Assembly (NCBI GenBank): GCA_026387935.1
Contig: JAPLKU010000012.1
Location: 1 to 64,000, forward strand
DNA length: 64,000 nt
Direction: 5' to 3'
Source: Gemmatimonadota bacterium
Lineage (GTDB): Bacteria; Gemmatimonadota; Gemmatimonadetes; Gemmatimonadales; Gemmatimonadaceae
The notes beneath the pieces are model-generated. The model ran no database searches and was not told where the DNA came from. It saw nothing but the letters and a program-made list of their open reading frames with translations. Position 1 is the first letter of the stretch, and every line of letters begins with the position of its first letter. Both the position numbers and the translations under genes were made by a program. Positions 20,339 to 37,291 of this stretch are shown in pieces.

Positions 20339-22990
20339 CTACGGCTTCTTGCCCATCTTCGCGCGCAGTTCTGCCGGCCAGTTTGTGACCACCACCACCT
20401 GCTGCGCATAGTCGGCGCTCTCCAGTATCACGAAGCGCGAGCCGTCGCGCGTTACGTCGTACGGTGCGCCCATGCCGTCGCCTCTCGAGAAGTTCGCGCT
20501 GAATAGCGAATCGCGCGACGCGACTGTCAGCGACGCTGGTCCGGTCGTGAGATTCGCCTGCATCATAGTGCGGCCATTGAGATAGTAGATGCGCCGTCCG
20601 TCCGCCGACCAGACCGGGCACGATCCGCCACTCGCCGTGATTGAGACTTTGCCCGCGTCCCCGTCCACGCGGCGCACATAGACTTCGGGGCGACCGGTCT
20701 CGGACGAGTTGTAGGCGACCCACTTGCTGTCGGGCGAGAATCGTGGCTGAAACTCATCGCCGGGTCCGGCGGCGAACGTGCGCGCCTGCGTCGTGTCGCC
20801 CACGGCACTGATGAACAGATCATACGAATCGCTGAAGTACGGAAAGACGAGCAACTTGCCGTCTGGACTCATCACCGACGTCGTGTTCGTCCTGTGCTTC
20901 TCCAGCGGAGTCACGGCGCCACCGCCATCGGCATTGGTCGCGAAGGTGCGCGCTACGGTATCGGCGTTCGACCAGAACAGGATCCGTTTTCCGTCGGGCG
21001 TCCAGACCGGATCGAAATTATTCGCGCCGGTAGTCAATCGTGTGAAGGTCGCGCTTGCAATGCTGTGCACCCAGATGTCGGATGTCCCGCTCTGAATCGA
21101 CACGGCAATCCTGCTGCTATCTGGCGAGAGCCGCGGCTGGGAAAAGTTCGCCACGTCTCGGCGTACCGGTGTCGTCCGCCCCGTCCGGTCGACCCAAACC
21201 AGCCGATTCGCGTTGGTGCTGCGCATGTATGTCAGCGTCCCCGAGCGGGAGAGCCGCGCGGCGGCGTCGCCATTGCACCCCGGGCAGACAGCGACCGGAT
21301 CAAGCACCGGCGACGGGTTGCCTGTAACCTTCCTCGCTCGCAGGTCGAACGGCACGGCCATCACCGCGCCATCGGACGCGACGTAGATCAGGTGCCCGTC
21401 GCGTACACCAAGTGGAGCGATCCCTTTGACTCCAAGCCGAGTGACCGCGCCTCCCCTGATTGACGCAATCGCCAGCGTTGACCGGCTGGTACTGCTCCCG
21501 TTGTATATCGCGAACGCCACCGTTTCGCCGTCATCGAGTACCACCGGCCAGACAAACGTTGCTTCCCCTTTGGCGGTATCGGGCACAGCGAACTGTTCGA
21601 ACGCTCCTCCCGACGCCGGCATTTTCACCAGCCCCGGCAGTCCCTGCCGCGGTGAGCCGGACACGATCACATCGCCTGAACTCCAGTCGCCTCCATTGCC
21701 GGGCCCCGCATCGTTCAGCACAACCGGTGCGCCGTCCGATAGCAACACCTTCTTCCACTTGCCGTCGGCGATGAACGCGAGCCACCTGCCGTCCGGAGAA
21801 AAGATCGGTTGCATGCCCCTCTCGGTGCCCGGCACCGCTCGGCCCTGAAGTTCGCCAATGGGTCGCACGAAAAACTGCGGCGTGCCGCCAACCGCTGCCG
21901 AGTATACAATCAACTTGCCGTCCGGCGATGCGACGGTCGACCAGGTGAAGTTGTAGACGATGGGTGCAGCAGTGTCGGGTGTTAGGGTAAAGCGCACCGG
22001 TACTTCTTCGTCCACCGGCCCGCGCCTCGAGGCAATCGCGCCCCAGACGAGCGCCGCTACCGTCGCCAGTGCCAATCCCAGCACTACCGGATCGCGCCAG
22101 CGCGCACGCCCCGGAGCCGCGCCGGCTGTCGCATCGCCGTACGACGTCGTCGTGGCTCCGCGGCCGTCCAGCGCCTCAGAGAACTCCTTCGCCGATGCAA
22201 AGCGGTCCGCCGGCAACTTCTCCAGCGCGCGTAGGACTGCTCCTTCGACGGCCGGTGTCACACGATCCCGCCGTGGGATCACGCGCGAAGGCTTTTCCGT
22301 GAGCACTCGCCCGACGATTGCTTGCGCCGTGGGTCCCGTGAACGGCGCCTCTCCGGTGAGCATCTCGTACAGCACGCAGCCGAGCGCGTAGATATCGGTG
22401 CGCGCATCGAGCGTGCGCTCGCCCATGGCCTGTTCGGGACTCATGTACACGGGCGTGCCGAGGCTCATCCCCGTCTCGGTCATGCGCGAGCCGCCGGTGC
22501 GTGACGCGGCGAGCGCGATGCCGAAGTCTGCCACCATCGCGTGCGAGCCGTGCAGCAGGATGTTCTCGGGCTTGATGTCGCGGTGGATCACGCCGTGGTC
22601 GTGCGCGTACTGCAGCGCGTCGGCCACTTCGCGCGCAAGACGGATCGCATCGTCGATCGGGAGCTGGCGTTCGCGCGTGAGCCGGTCGCGCAGCGTCTCG
22701 CCATCCACCCAGGGCATCACGTAGAACACGGTGCCGTCAACCTGACCGGAATCGAACAGCGCCAGAATGTGCGGATGCTGCAGGTTGGCGGTGGTCTTGA
22801 TTTCGGCGAGGAATCGGTCGCCGCCGATGACAGCCGCGAGTTCGGGACGCAGCACCTTGAGCGCGACGTGGCGGTCGTGCTTGATGTCGTGCGCGAGGTA
22901 GACCGTGGCCATGCCGCCCTGCCCGAGTTCGCGCTCGATGCGGTAGCGGCCGGTGAGGGCTTCGCTCATGTGTGCGAGATCAGAGGACAT
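20339..22990 (-). CDS. Receptor-like serine/threonine kinase with C-terminal PD40/TolB-like propeller (second copy)
   Basis: An 883-residue kinase with the same plan as the gene at 16790. The kinase domain (about 15-275) has GQGGMATVYLAHD, Lys45 in VALKVL, HRD 136-138, DFG 155-157 and MSPEQAMGER. A transmembrane helix lies at about 301-321, followed by a long extracytoplasmic propeller with repeats such as FSPDGRWLAFIADG, LSPDSSRIAVSI, WTPDGKRILFWS and FSPDSKWVAYNSS, ending in TNWPAELRAKMGKKP. The first kinase ends in a similar FTEMRARLARQR tail, so the two are paralogues sharing an old duplication. A second ATG at 22969 is also possible. The gene is flanked by 27-bp direct repeats. Confidence 0.93.
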   Translation of the reverse strand: MSSDLAHMSEALTGRYRIERELGQGGMATVYLAHDIKHDRHVALKVLRPELAAVIGGDRFLAEIKTTANLQHPHILALFDSGQVDGTVFYVMPWVDGETLRDRLTRERQLPIDDAIRLAREVADALQYAHDHGVIHRDIKPENILLHGSHAMVADFGIALAASRTGGSRMTETGMSLGTPVYMSPEQAMGERTLDARTDIYALGCVLYEMLTGEAPFTGPTAQAIVGRVLTEKPSRVIPRRDRVTPAVEGAVLRALEKLPADRFASAKEFSEALDGRGATTTSYGDATAGAAPGRARWRDPVVLGLALATVAALVWGAIASRRGPVDEEVPVRFTLTPDTAAPIVYNFTWSTVASPDGKLIVYSAAVGGTPQFFVRPIGELQGRAVPGTERGMQPIFSPDGRWLAFIADGKWKKVLLSDGAPVVLNDAGPGNGGDWSSGDVIVSGSPRQGLPGLVKMPASGGAFEQFAVPDTAKGEATFVWPVVLDDGETVAFAIYNGSSTSRSTLAIASIRGGAVTRLGVKGIAPLGVRDGHLIYVASDGAVMAVPFDLRARKVTGNPSPVLDPVAVCPGCNGDAAARLSRSGTLTYMRSTNANRLVWVDRTGRTTPVRRDVANFSQPRLSPDSSRIAVSIQSGTSDIWVHSIASATFTRLTTGANNFDPVWTPDGKRILFWSNADTVARTFATNADGGGAVTPLEKHRTNTTSVMSPDGKLLVFPYFSDSYDLFISAVGDTTQARTFAAGPGDEFQPRFSPDSKWVAYNSSETGRPEVYVRRVDGDAGKVSITASGGSCPVWSADGRRIYYLNGRTMMQANLTTGPASLTVASRDSLFSANFSRGDGMGAPYDVTRDGSRFVILESADYAQQVVVVTNWPAELRAKMGKKP

Positions 22991-26217: not shown

Positions 26218-26308
26218 GTCCGATCTTGCGTGCTACACGCGTAGAACGATGACGAGGGATTGAACGAAAGTTCGATTCGAACTAAGTCGGTCGTCAACCA
26301 CCAGCGGT

Positions 26309-26352
26309 CGAATCCCCGCGTTGCGTGCGCAAGCACACAACGCGGGGATTCG
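26309..26352. repeat. 44-nt perfect-stem hairpin with GCAA tetraloop
   Basis: Perfect 15-bp arms CGAATCCCCGCGTTG (26309-26323) and CAACGCGGGGATTCG (26338-26352) enclose one C/A mismatch, a 4-bp GTGC/GCAC helix and a GCAA (GNRA) loop. No T-run follows, so it is not a standard terminator. A 13-bp palindrome GTTCGATTCGAAC precedes it at 26270-26282. It lies 92 bases after the NTF2-like gene in a 492-base gap with no convincing gene. Confidence 0.8.
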
Positions 26353-26577
26353 GATGTCTGTCCACTGCGCATCGCGTGTTGCTCACGTGTGCGCGGCAGA
26401 GAATGGTCCTCTTCGTTCCTGTGGGAGATACGGCGGATCCCACGCGCGATCCTCAGTTCTACGACGAAACGTCTGAGTATCTGACAGAGTTGGGGATCGA
26501 ACAGCTGGCGTGAGCGGTGCGCCGCCGGTGTTCAGGGCTGGCACGGGCCCGCCGGCCGAACGCGCGTCGGCTGCGGT

Positions 26578-26622
26578 CTCGGCGCTAGCGCGGGATCGGA
26601 AACGGCCGGATGGGCCGGATTG
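26578..26622. repeat. CTCGGCGCTAGCGCGG dispersed repeat, copy 1
   Basis: 45 bp starting CTCGGCGCTAGCGCGG and including ACGGCCGGA and CGGATTG. A second copy with the same start and order lies at 37246-37291. Both lie upstream of a plus-strand gene. Confidence 0.65.
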
Positions 26623-26637
26623 CTCCGTGCCGGACCG

Positions 26638-26665
26638 ATTGCACTGAACCGGTACGGAGTGCAAT
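26638..26665. promoter_or_regulatory. Operator-like inverted repeat upstream of the DUF4258-like/DUF2283 pair
   Basis: Perfect arms ATTGCACT and AGTGCAAT with a 12-base spacer that contains ACCGGT. It ends 44 bases before the first gene of the small pair, a position suited to an autoregulatory operator. This is inferred only. Confidence 0.45.
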
Positions 26666-26709
26666 GAAATGGTGACGGTTCCTCGCACGGCGCGCTGCAT
26701 CGTGTGCGC

Positions 26710-26952
26710 ATGCGAAACTACCAGTTCACGGCCTACTTCGAGTTCGAGGTGCTCCGGAGGCGTGCGTACCTTCGGAAGGCATGGTGCATCCGAACACTCG
26801 AGTCTCCTCTCCGCATCGAACGGCAGCCCGACGGTCGATTTCGATTCTGGGCGTCGGTCCCCGAGTTCTGCGGGCGGTACCTTGGGGTCATCACACTGGA
26901 CGATCAGGTTACAATACCGAACGCCTTCCCTGGCCGCGGATTCAAGCCATGA
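26710..26952 (+). CDS. Small DUF4258-like protein
   Basis: An 80-residue protein starting MRNYQFTAYFEFEVLRRRAY. It has the pattern of small DUF4258-like proteins in which YFExEVLxxRxYLxxxxCIRxLExP is followed by a beta hairpin (RFRFWASVPEFCGRYLGVITLDD) and an NAFPGR motif. This fold is RelE-like, with two strands after an N-terminal helix. The next gene, a DUF2283 protein, overlaps by ATGA; small DUF4258-like and DUF2283 genes are often adjacent, from memory. A toxin-antitoxin-type role is possible but unproven. An alternative GTG lies 6 bases upstream. The start is not preceded by a clear Shine-Dalgarno. Confidence 0.65.
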   Translation: MRNYQFTAYFEFEVLRRRAYLRKAWCIRTLESPLRIERQPDGRFRFWASVPEFCGRYLGVITLDDQVTIPNAFPGRGFKP

Positions 26953-27119
26953 AGCTCAGCTATTATCGCGAAGCGGACTCGCTCTACATCTCCTTTTCCG
27001 AGCAGACGAGCGTGGACAGCCGTGAGATCTCCGACGGTGTCGTCGTGGACTCTGACGCTAGGGGCAAACCGGTCGGAATCGATATCGACAATGTGCGAAA
27101 GATGGTCGATCTCGATTGA
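26949..27119 (+). CDS. DUF2283 small protein
   Basis: A 56-residue protein reading MKLSYYREADSLYISFSEQT and then SREISDGVVVDSDARGKPVGIDIDNV, a complete DUF2283 domain. It overlaps the preceding gene by four bases (ATGA), so the two are made together. DUF2283 proteins are short beta-rich partners, thought to accompany DUF4258-like proteins. Function is unknown. It ends about 95 bases before the molybdopterin oxidoreductase gene. Confidence 0.82.
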   Translation: MKLSYYREADSLYISFSEQTSVDSREISDGVVVDSDARGKPVGIDIDNVRKMVDLD

Positions 27120-27214
27120 CTTGTGCTCGATCCCCTGAATCCGGAAGTACAGATTCTCGCCGGCTGACCGGTGATTTCCGTACCTTAGAACGGCCCACAC
27201 CTCCGAGGCCCGCC

Positions 27215-29506
27215 GTGAGCGCTGAACTTTCCGCCGGAATGGAACGCCGGTCCTTTCTCCAACGCCTCGCCGCCGGGGGCCTCGTCCTCGCGGTCGGCCC
27301 GGCCGGCGTGAAACAGTTCCATGCGCTGTCCGAACTCGAAGCCGCAGATGCAACGGCGCTGCTCTCCGACCCCTTCGCCCCTTCGGTCTACCTCAGCATC
27401 TCCGACGCCGGCATCGCGACCATCATCTGCCACCGCTCTGAAATGGGCCAGGGTAGCACCACGACGCTCGTGATGACGCTCGCCGACGAACTCGAGGCCG
27501 ACTGGACCAAGGTGCGGCTCGAGCAGGCCATCGGCGACGCGAAGTACGGCGACCAGAACACCGACGGCTCCACGAGCATCCGGAACGGCACGTACATGAA
27601 GTTCCGTGAGGTGGGCGCCACGGCCCGCCTCATGCTCGCCCAGGCGGCCGCCGCCACCTGGGGCGTTCCCGTCAATGAAGTGACCGCGCGCAACAGCGTG
27701 GTGACGCACGGCAAAACCAAGCGCACACTCGACTACGGTGCACTTGTTGCCCGCGCGCGAACGTTGCCCGTCCCAGCGAGCGCGCCGCTCAAGGCGCCGA
27801 AAGACTTTCGGTACATCGGAAAGAAGATCAAAGGCGTCAAGCCGATGCAGCAACACGCGATGGTCACGGGCAAGGCGACGTTCGGGCAGGACGCCACCAT
27901 GCCGGGCATGAAGGTCGCCGTCATCCTCCATCCGCCGGTGTACGGCGCGCACGTGCTCAAGTTCGACGCGGCCGCCGCGCTCGCCGTGCCGGGCGTCGAA
28001 AAGGTCATCGAAATCCCTGGCGCGCCGATTCCCTCGGCATTCAACCCGCTCGGCGGCGTCGCGGTCATCGCGTCATCAACGTGGGCGGCGATATCGGGCC
28101 GAGCCAAGCTCAACGCGACGTGGAGCGAGAGTCCGAACGATTCGTACGATTCCGCGGCCTACCGCACCGAACTCGAATCATCGGTGCGGGCGGCGGGCAA
28201 TACGGTTCGCGACATCGGCAACACGGATAGCGCGCTCAACAGCGCGCCCAAGAAGATCTCGGCCGAGTACTACGCGCCGCACCTCGCGCAGGCGCCGATG
28301 GAACCGCCGGCCGCGCTCGCGAACGTCACGGGCAACAAGTGCGAGGTGTGGGCCTGCACGCAGGATCCGCAGACGGCGCAGACCACGGTCGCGGCGCTGC
28401 TCAAGATCCCCAAGGAGAATGTCACGATCAACGTCACCCTGCTGGGCGGCGGGTTCGGCCGCAAGTCGAAGCCCGATTTCGTGGCCGAGGCGGCGTGGTT
28501 GTCGCAGCAGATCGGCGCGCCGGTGAAGGTGGTGTGGACGCGCGAGGACGATATCCGGAACGGGTTCGTCCACACGGTATCCATGCAGCGCCTCGAGGCG
28601 GGGCTCGACGCGAGCGGGAAGATCTCTGCGTGGAAGCACCGCATTGCGTCGCCGCCGATTCCGTCGCTGTTCGCACCGGGGCAGGAGTTTCACAGCGACG
28701 GCGAACTCGCACTCGGCGTGCTCGACATGCCGTACGCGATTCCCAACGTGCGCGTGGAAGCCTGCCGCGCGCCGGCGCACGCGCGCATTGGCTGGTACCG
28801 CTCGGTGAGCAACATCCCGCAGGCGTTCGCGATTGCATCGTTCATGGATGAGCTGGCGCATGAAGCGGGAGTTGATCCGGTGCAGTTCCTGCTGGCATCG
28901 CTCGGCGGCGATCGCGTTATCGACATGACGAAGCAGGGCGCCGCGAAGCCGGTGGACAACTACGGAGCCAAGTGGGAGGAGCATCCCAACGACACCGCGC
29001 GGCACCGGCGCGTGCTCGAAGCGGTGGCGCGTGAAAGCGGATGGGGCAAGAAACTCCCCGCCGGCGAAGGGATGGGCGTGGCGGTGCACCGGAGTTTTCT
29101 CACCTACGTGGCGTGCGTGACCCACGTGGCCGTCGGGCCACGCGGTGCGCTCACAATCAGGCGCGTGGACATGGCCATGGATTGCGGGTTCGCCGTGAAT
29201 CCGGATCGTGTGAAGTCGCAGTGCGAGGGCGGCATCGGGATGGGGATCGCGAATGCGCTTGTCAGCGAACTCAGTTATTCCAAGGGCGCCACGGTGCAAT
29301 CGAATTTCAATGATTATCAGGTGCTGCGCATGCGCGCGAACCCCAGGGACGTGCGCATCCACCTCGTGGACTCGGGCGGGCCGATCGGTGGCGTGGGCGA
29401 GCCGCCGGTGCCGCCGGTGGCGCCGTCGCTGTGCAATGCGATCTTCGCGGCGACGGGGAAGCGGATACGGAGTTTGCCGATCGGGAATCAGCTGGCAGGA
29501 TCGTAA
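27215..29506 (+). CDS. IorB-like molybdopterin oxidoreductase large subunit with Tat signal
   Basis: A 763-residue protein of the xanthine dehydrogenase superfamily, closest in plan to the beta subunit of isoquinoline 1-oxidoreductase (IorB) and aldehyde dehydrogenases of that group. The N-terminus has a twin-arginine leader, MERRSFLQRLAAGGLVLAVG, so export as a folded cofactor protein is expected. Molybdopterin-binding segments include EMGQGSTTTLVMTLADELEAD, LLGGGFGRKSKPDF, YRSVSNIPQAFAIASFMDEL and the catalytic-glutamate region GGVGEPPVPPVAPSL. The GTG at 27215 has GAGG 6 nt upstream; an ATG at 27239 is the alternative. The usual [2Fe-2S] subunit gene (IorA) is not adjacent in this window. 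Confidence 0.85.
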   Translation: MSAELSAGMERRSFLQRLAAGGLVLAVGPAGVKQFHALSELEAADATALLSDPFAPSVYLSISDAGIATIICHRSEMGQGSTTTLVMTLADELEADWTKVRLEQAIGDAKYGDQNTDGSTSIRNGTYMKFREVGATARLMLAQAAAATWGVPVNEVTARNSVVTHGKTKRTLDYGALVARARTLPVPASAPLKAPKDFRYIGKKIKGVKPMQQHAMVTGKATFGQDATMPGMKVAVILHPPVYGAHVLKFDAAAALAVPGVEKVIEIPGAPIPSAFNPLGGVAVIASSTWAAISGRAKLNATWSESPNDSYDSAAYRTELESSVRAAGNTVRDIGNTDSALNSAPKKISAEYYAPHLAQAPMEPPAALANVTGNKCEVWACTQDPQTAQTTVAALLKIPKENVTINVTLLGGGFGRKSKPDFVAEAAWLSQQIGAPVKVVWTREDDIRNGFVHTVSMQRLEAGLDASGKISAWKHRIASPPIPSLFAPGQEFHSDGELALGVLDMPYAIPNVRVEACRAPAHARIGWYRSVSNIPQAFAIASFMDELAHEAGVDPVQFLLASLGGDRVIDMTKQGAAKPVDNYGAKWEEHPNDTARHRRVLEAVARESGWGKKLPAGEGMGVAVHRSFLTYVACVTHVAVGPRGALTIRRVDMAMDCGFAVNPDRVKSQCEGGIGMGIANALVSELSYSKGATVQSNFNDYQVLRMRANPRDVRIHLVDSGGPIGGVGEPPVPPVAPSLCNAIFAATGKRIRSLPIGNQLAGS

Positions 29507-37245: not shown

Positions 37246-37291
37246 CTCGGCGCTAGCGCGGTGGCGGACAACGGCCGGACGGTTCGGATTG
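37246..37291. repeat. CTCGGCGCTAGCGCGG dispersed repeat, copy 2
   Basis: 46 bp sharing the first 16 bases exactly with 26578-26593 and then ACGGCCGGA and CGGATTG in the same order, with one indel. It lies between the cytochrome gene and the DUF2911 gene. Confidence 0.65.

Follow-up and report, generated by a model that had tools for sequence, protein, structure and literature searches.

A probably degenerate toxin-antitoxin module pairing an unnamed BECR-fold protein family with DUF2283 in Gemmatimonadota

Two short overlapping genes, located in the 64,000-nucleotide stretch of Gemmatimonadota DNA analyzed here (the window), probably represent a type II toxin-antitoxin module in a degenerate state; we put the probability of this reading at about 0.7. 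In the intact relatives, the first gene (gene 1) would encode a BECR RNase toxin and the second (gene 2) a DUF2283 antitoxin. The features of the locus are listed in Table 1.

Table 1. Features of the gene pair and positions at which the window copy departs from its relatives
Feature	Positions	Strand	Description
Inverted repeat	26638-26645 and 26658-26665		Perfect 8-bp arms, 12-nt spacer
Gene 1	26710-26952	+	80 aa, ATG start; BECR/RelE-fold toxin-like, unnamed family
Gene 1, codon 59	26884-26886	+	Gly; Arg in the family (R59G)
Gene 1, codon 70	26917-26919	+	Pro; His in the family (H70P); Leu in L012 and L020
Gene 1, codon 75	26932-26934	+	Gly; Asp in the family (D75G)
Gene 2	26949-27119	+	DUF2283 (PF10049), antitoxin-like; 56 aa as it stands
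Premature in-frame TGA, gene 2	27117-27119	+	Codon 57 of a 72-codon frame
C-terminal tail remnant, gene 2	27120-27167	+	In frame; ends at the stop position of the relatives

The preliminary description of this DNA had reported an inverted repeat with 8-bp arms, followed by two short genes overlapping by four bases, and both features are present. The repeat (ATTGCACT-12 nt-AGTGCAAT) occurs once in the 2.8-Mb assembly and lies 44 bp before the start codon of gene 1. The overlap is the sequence ATGA, in which the ATG of gene 2 at 26949 is joined to the TGA of gene 1 ending at 26952. A second in-frame start codon of gene 1, GTG at 26704, is located six bases upstream of the ATG at 26710; the latter is favored because L004, a close relative, has its start there. 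The assignment of gene 2 to DUF2283 holds: it scores 57.5 bits (E 1.5e-15; profile positions 1-48 of 49) against a Pfam gathering score of 23 bits. It is the only DUF2283 match in the source genome, in which no DUF4258 match was found, and the Pfam search gave no DNA-binding domain for it.

Several features were observed around the pair. Downstream, at 27116-29506, lies a gene for a molybdopterin-binding dehydrogenase subunit (MoCoBD_1, MoCoBD_2). The TTG start listed for it at 27116 runs into the tail of gene 2, and comparison with L142 suggests that the start is further downstream. A serine/threonine kinase fused to PD40 beta-propeller repeats is encoded on the minus strand at 20339-22990. 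A long inverted repeat able to form a hairpin (CGAATCCCCGCGTT.../...AACGCGGGGATTCG), seen by eye at 26307-26353 about 90 bases behind a DUF4440/SnoaL-like gene, is perhaps the terminator of that gene, although no T-run follows it. The stretch CGGCGCTAGCGCGGGATC at 26580-26597, upstream of the pair, resembles the opposite strand of the intergenic GCGCTAGCGCCGAGAC of G005 (L142:6510-6535). A further copy, with 3 mismatches, is found at 37248 of the window. Stretches of this type may represent a short repeat that is interspersed in genomes of the genus.

Gene 1 gave no match in Pfam, NCBIfam, PADLOC or PHROGs, and the aligned members of its family gave no more than scattered weak matches in family libraries. 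The gene had been called DUF4258-like. None of the 29 aligned members reaches the 25-bit cut-off of Pfam DUF4258 (PF14076), the best E value being 0.1 for one member. Comparison of the gene-1 profile with DUF4258 homologues by hhalign gave a weak match (probability 53; E 1.4e-4 for one comparison; 51 columns), and this profile similarity is considered only suggestive. What can be kept of the name is the fold outline; membership of DUF4258 is not supported, given the lack of a Pfam match and of any member above the cut-off. Sequence searches of the PDB returned nothing for gene 1 and chance-level rows only for DUF2283. Among viral contigs and phages, no relatives were found.

The RelE-like outline proposed for gene 1 agrees with its predicted structure. 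The model, based on 29 sequences, has a pLDDT of 94.2 and comprises helices at residues 8-17 and 23-31 followed by four strands. The two helices, the antiparallel beta-sheet and the structural match to known members would place the protein in the BECR / RelE-ParE superfamily. In VIA-align, BrnT was ranked first (Z 8.0, rmsd 2.4, 72 aligned residues), followed by chains of CDI complexes with Z from 6.8 to 5.3 (CdiA-CT NC101, 6.8), RelE2 (5.2) and YoeB (5.0). All of the top seven rows are chains of toxin-antitoxin or CDI toxin complexes, with Z from 8.0 to 5.0, where values below about 8 may reflect a common arrangement. The best solved structure in Foldseek was CdiA-CT NC101 (probability 1.00, E 0.028); no Foldseek match below an E value of 0.001 was obtained for this model or for that of DUF2283.

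The DUF2283 model was made from the partner protein of L003, the closest relative. Its pLDDT is 82.9, with the tail from residue 65 below 50. The top Foldseek match was 7vmc chain C (probability 0.99, E 0.19), to which VIA-align gave Z 5.2 and rmsd 2.5 over 57 residues. This chain is taken to be the CdiI immunity protein of EC869, since it has 177 residues and an excerpt of PMC9071432 describes CdiI of EC869 as modelled over residues 3-179; the part of it that the DUF2283 model resembles is residues 119-179. Both halves of the pair therefore lead, weakly and independently of each other, to toxin-immunity complexes as found in CDI. Another VIA-align match of DUF2283, 9a77_B (Z 6.1, rmsd 5.9), was set aside because of its high rmsd.

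Co-occurrence analysis had been proposed as a check on the pair. In an even sample of the phylum Gemmatimonadota (298 genomes, G000 included), the gene-1 profile was found at 48 places in 45 genomes and DUF2283 at 94 places in 77 genomes. DUF2283 lies directly downstream on the same strand at 43 of the 48 gene-1 places, including all 25 that are intact, that is, full length and free of stops. This pairing is more than chance. The five unpaired places are all partial matches, a class that includes weak ones (e.g. G078, G276), perhaps due to chance or to contig edges. A figure of 60/91 includes duplicate loci, and the counts from the 298 genomes are the ones to use.

In most cases the overlap is the 4-base ATGA, as in the window. 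The two genes are adjacent, co-directional and coupled, as in a type II toxin-antitoxin module. Subfamilies of the two proteins correspond to each other: their distance matrices for 27 pairs correlate with r 0.88, a value as high being reached in 0 of 5000 permutations, though linked inheritance alone would also raise r. The same arrangement was found in records with the titles Nitrospirota, Desulfobacteraceae, Chloroflexi and Gemmatimonadota, and on plasmid pRMAR01 of Rhodothermus marinus, where the second gene is annotated as DUF2283.

The window copy itself looks dead, both of its genes appearing damaged in ways that the preliminary description had not reported. The near-invariant residues that would mark an active member of the gene-1 family, R59, H70 and D75, are all replaced, although His 70 is not absolute in the family, since two relatives carry leucine there. 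Changes were found in 4 of the 23 near-invariant columns, the most among the 29 aligned members; the others have 0 to 3. The alignment left out duplicates, the frameshifted L060 and truncated members, so that this leave-one-out comparison was made against intact relatives only.

Gene 2 is 56 aa long, compared with 63-74 aa in the aligned relatives. When it is read past the TGA, LVLDPLNPEVQILAG and then a stop follow, in agreement with the relatives to the last codon. This in-frame remnant indicates that one sense codon became TGA and that the flexible tail was lost. The simplest explanation is a nonsense mutation that arose recently in a module for which the antitoxin had become dispensable; an assembly error at 27117 is also possible. 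Both frames are largely open, and their divergence is mainly synonymous, which would fit either a recent onset of decay or some retained role of the altered protein. It should be noted that the synonymous sites were saturated in the dN/dS comparison. Because of the damage in both genes, an active unit at this locus seems unlikely.

The inverted repeat had been regarded as an operator-like palindrome through which the pair would regulate itself. This part of the proposal is not supported, as the repeat is not conserved in the relatives and gene 2 has no DNA-binding domain. In 217 of 2000 dinucleotide shuffles (about 11%), the 170 bp before gene 1 hold such an 8-bp repeat, and 62 repeats of this kind are present in the 64-kb window, only four of which, the palindrome included, have at least four A or T per arm. 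Any 8-bp repeat within 120 bp upstream was found in 3 of 29 family members, with unrelated sequences, while shuffles gave 1.0 on average and 5 at most. L003 has its own 8-bp repeat at -57, different in sequence from that of the window. No consensus of a sigma-70 promoter or terminator was found near the palindrome, no Rfam match was found for the stretch, and its RNA fold is no better than that of shuffles (z -0.04). The palindrome is hardly more than chance. It may be the site of some regulator, and nothing marks it as the operator of the gene-1/DUF2283 module.

Decay of gene 1 is common among the relatives. As many as 23 of the 48 gene-1 places are broken, 20 being partial and three full length with an internal stop. 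At many of them, what can still be recognised of gene 1 is limited to 15 to 64 residues of the C-terminus, next to a DUF2283 frame that is open. No stop was found in the 94 DUF2283 matches, for which the profile does not cover the tail beyond position 49. Loss of gene 1 with retention of gene 2 is what we would expect, judging from these sequences, of a toxin and its antitoxin. In the same genus, G006 and G008 contain a relative in which only about 23 residues of gene 1 can still be recognised. In G005, which has the closest orthologue of the downstream gene (83% identical), the pair is absent next to that orthologue. The window copy looks like a late stage of toxin-antitoxin decay.

At L005, L010, L030, L041, L050, L052, L061, L076, L077, L024 and L025, gene 1 was seen to be cut from its 5' side at differing points, with the 3' end adjoining the DUF2283 start kept. 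Perhaps this end is needed for translation of the antitoxin. If the toxin-antitoxin reading is true, the family would also offer a test case for the decay of such modules, with a tendency of the toxin to be shortened from the 5' side and to keep the 3' end that overlaps the antitoxin start.

These results can be set against other explanations of the pair. According to the preliminary description, it would be a type II unit that is intact and works, with self-repression acting through the palindrome. The overlap, the order of the genes and the fold fit such a unit, as do the mostly open frames and the spacing between the palindrome and the start codon. The palindrome is, however, neither conserved nor rare, gene 2 has no DNA-binding domain, and the missing tail of gene 2 and the replacement of R59, H70 and D75 in gene 1 speak against a working unit, which we regard as unlikely. 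Co-occurrence, coupled subfamilies, asymmetric decay and the structural model support a pairing of toxin-antitoxin type and a RelE-like fold; autoregulation through the palindrome has no such support.

It is also conceivable that the toxin lost catalysis and has been retained in a regulatory or decoy role, for example as a non-cutting, RNA-binding partner of DUF2283. This would explain why the frame is open, why the window protein itself has a confident predicted fold and why the divergence is mostly synonymous. Yet the DUF2283 partner is truncated at the same time, the pair is missing in G005 next to the orthologue of the downstream gene, and nearly half of the homologous places are broken, which makes such a role quite improbable. 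Very improbable, finally, is a housekeeping operon of two genes without toxic activity, in which the RelE-like fold would be incidental. The Foldseek E values, none of them significant, would allow it; against it stand the patchy presence in 45 of 298 genomes, the frequent loss of gene 1 alone, the occurrence on a plasmid and the true DUF4258 genes that precede DUF2283 in half of their places.

This association with DUF4258 was found in the same 298 genomes: DUF4258 occurs at 26 places and is followed directly by DUF2283 at 13 of them, all distinct from the 43 gene-1/DUF2283 places. DUF2283 thus seems to serve two toxin families. In some DUF2283 proteins a C-terminal HTH_17 domain was detected. 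Its score exceeds the Pfam cut-off in L084, L081 and L037 but not in L039 and L090, and a DUF4258 gene lies directly upstream of the DUF2283-HTH_17 gene in L084 and L081. The DUF2283 of the window lineage has no HTH_17. We tentatively suggest, at a little less than even odds, that DUF2283 as a family has a general antitoxin role. Its beta-sheet fold would be like that of the C-terminal part of CdiI, and it would neutralize at least two separate BECR toxin families (DUF4258 and the unnamed one) and have gained HTH_17 for regulation in some lineages. If so, the orphan DUF2283 and a toxin family not yet modelled would join one toxin-antitoxin superfamily, linked to the immunity of contact-dependent inhibition.

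Searches with DUF2283, PF10049, COG5428 and IPR019270, in a literature that leaves out preprints and most subscription journals, gave no paper on the DUF2283 domain and none that describes it as an antitoxin, and the gene-1/DUF2283 pairing, though widespread, is apparently undescribed. Mentions of 'PF10049' in two papers do not refer to the DUF2283 domain: one denotes a calcineurin-like family, and the other is found in a bamboo paper. Should the pairing have the proposed meaning, a common protein of unknown function would gain a role as antitoxin, and a small toxin family absent from Pfam, NCBIfam, PADLOC and PHROGs would become findable.

For a degenerate toxin-antitoxin module, the following course of events may be considered. 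By analogy with BrnT, RelS and CdiA-CT, we infer that the intact gene 1 product would be a small BECR-fold ribonuclease, which arrests growth by cleaving RNA that serves in translation. Gene 2 would be translated from the overlapping ATGA directly behind gene 1. Its product, a small beta-sheet protein with a flexible C-terminal tail, would bind the toxin and cover the active site, thereby neutralizing it, as the same systems suggest. In the window, the toxin seems to have been disarmed before the antitoxin tail was lost, and toxicity would not be expected from this locus.

Among known systems, BrnT/BrnA of Brucella abortus (toxin PF04365, PDB 3u97) likewise has the toxin first, with a small BECR fold of about 80 aa, and BrnT is the best structural match of gene 1. 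It differs in that gene 1 has no Pfam BrnT match and in that the antitoxin here is DUF2283, without a DNA-binding domain in the window lineage. An excerpt of PMC11980606 includes DUF4258 (PF14076) among the BECR toxin families, with its mechanism given as unknown, without a reference, with the order A/T and with MqsA fusions. It shares with gene 1 the fold outline and, in the same phylum, the DUF2283 gene behind it; the order here is T/A, in contrast to that listing, and none of the conserved columns of the gene-1 family corresponds to the nearly invariant N-terminal His of DUF4258. In the CdiA-CT/CdiI pairs of tRNase and immunity protein (NC101, EC869; PDB 5i4r, 7vmc; excerpt of PMC9071432), the gene 1 model resembles the toxin and the DUF2283 model CdiI, both matches being below the usual significance; unlike these pairs, the gene pair has no CDI delivery genes among its searched neighbours. 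RelS-RelI (Rv2663-Rv2664) is, as far as an excerpt of PMC13284704 describes it, also a two-gene pair, in which a small BrnT-like toxin of RelE fold has its own antitoxin. The target of RelS is stated there to be 16S rRNA; RelI, which emerged from ClpC2 and is given as having no structural homologues, is unrelated to DUF2283. On that account, RelS-RelI is the nearest recently characterized BrnT-like pair.
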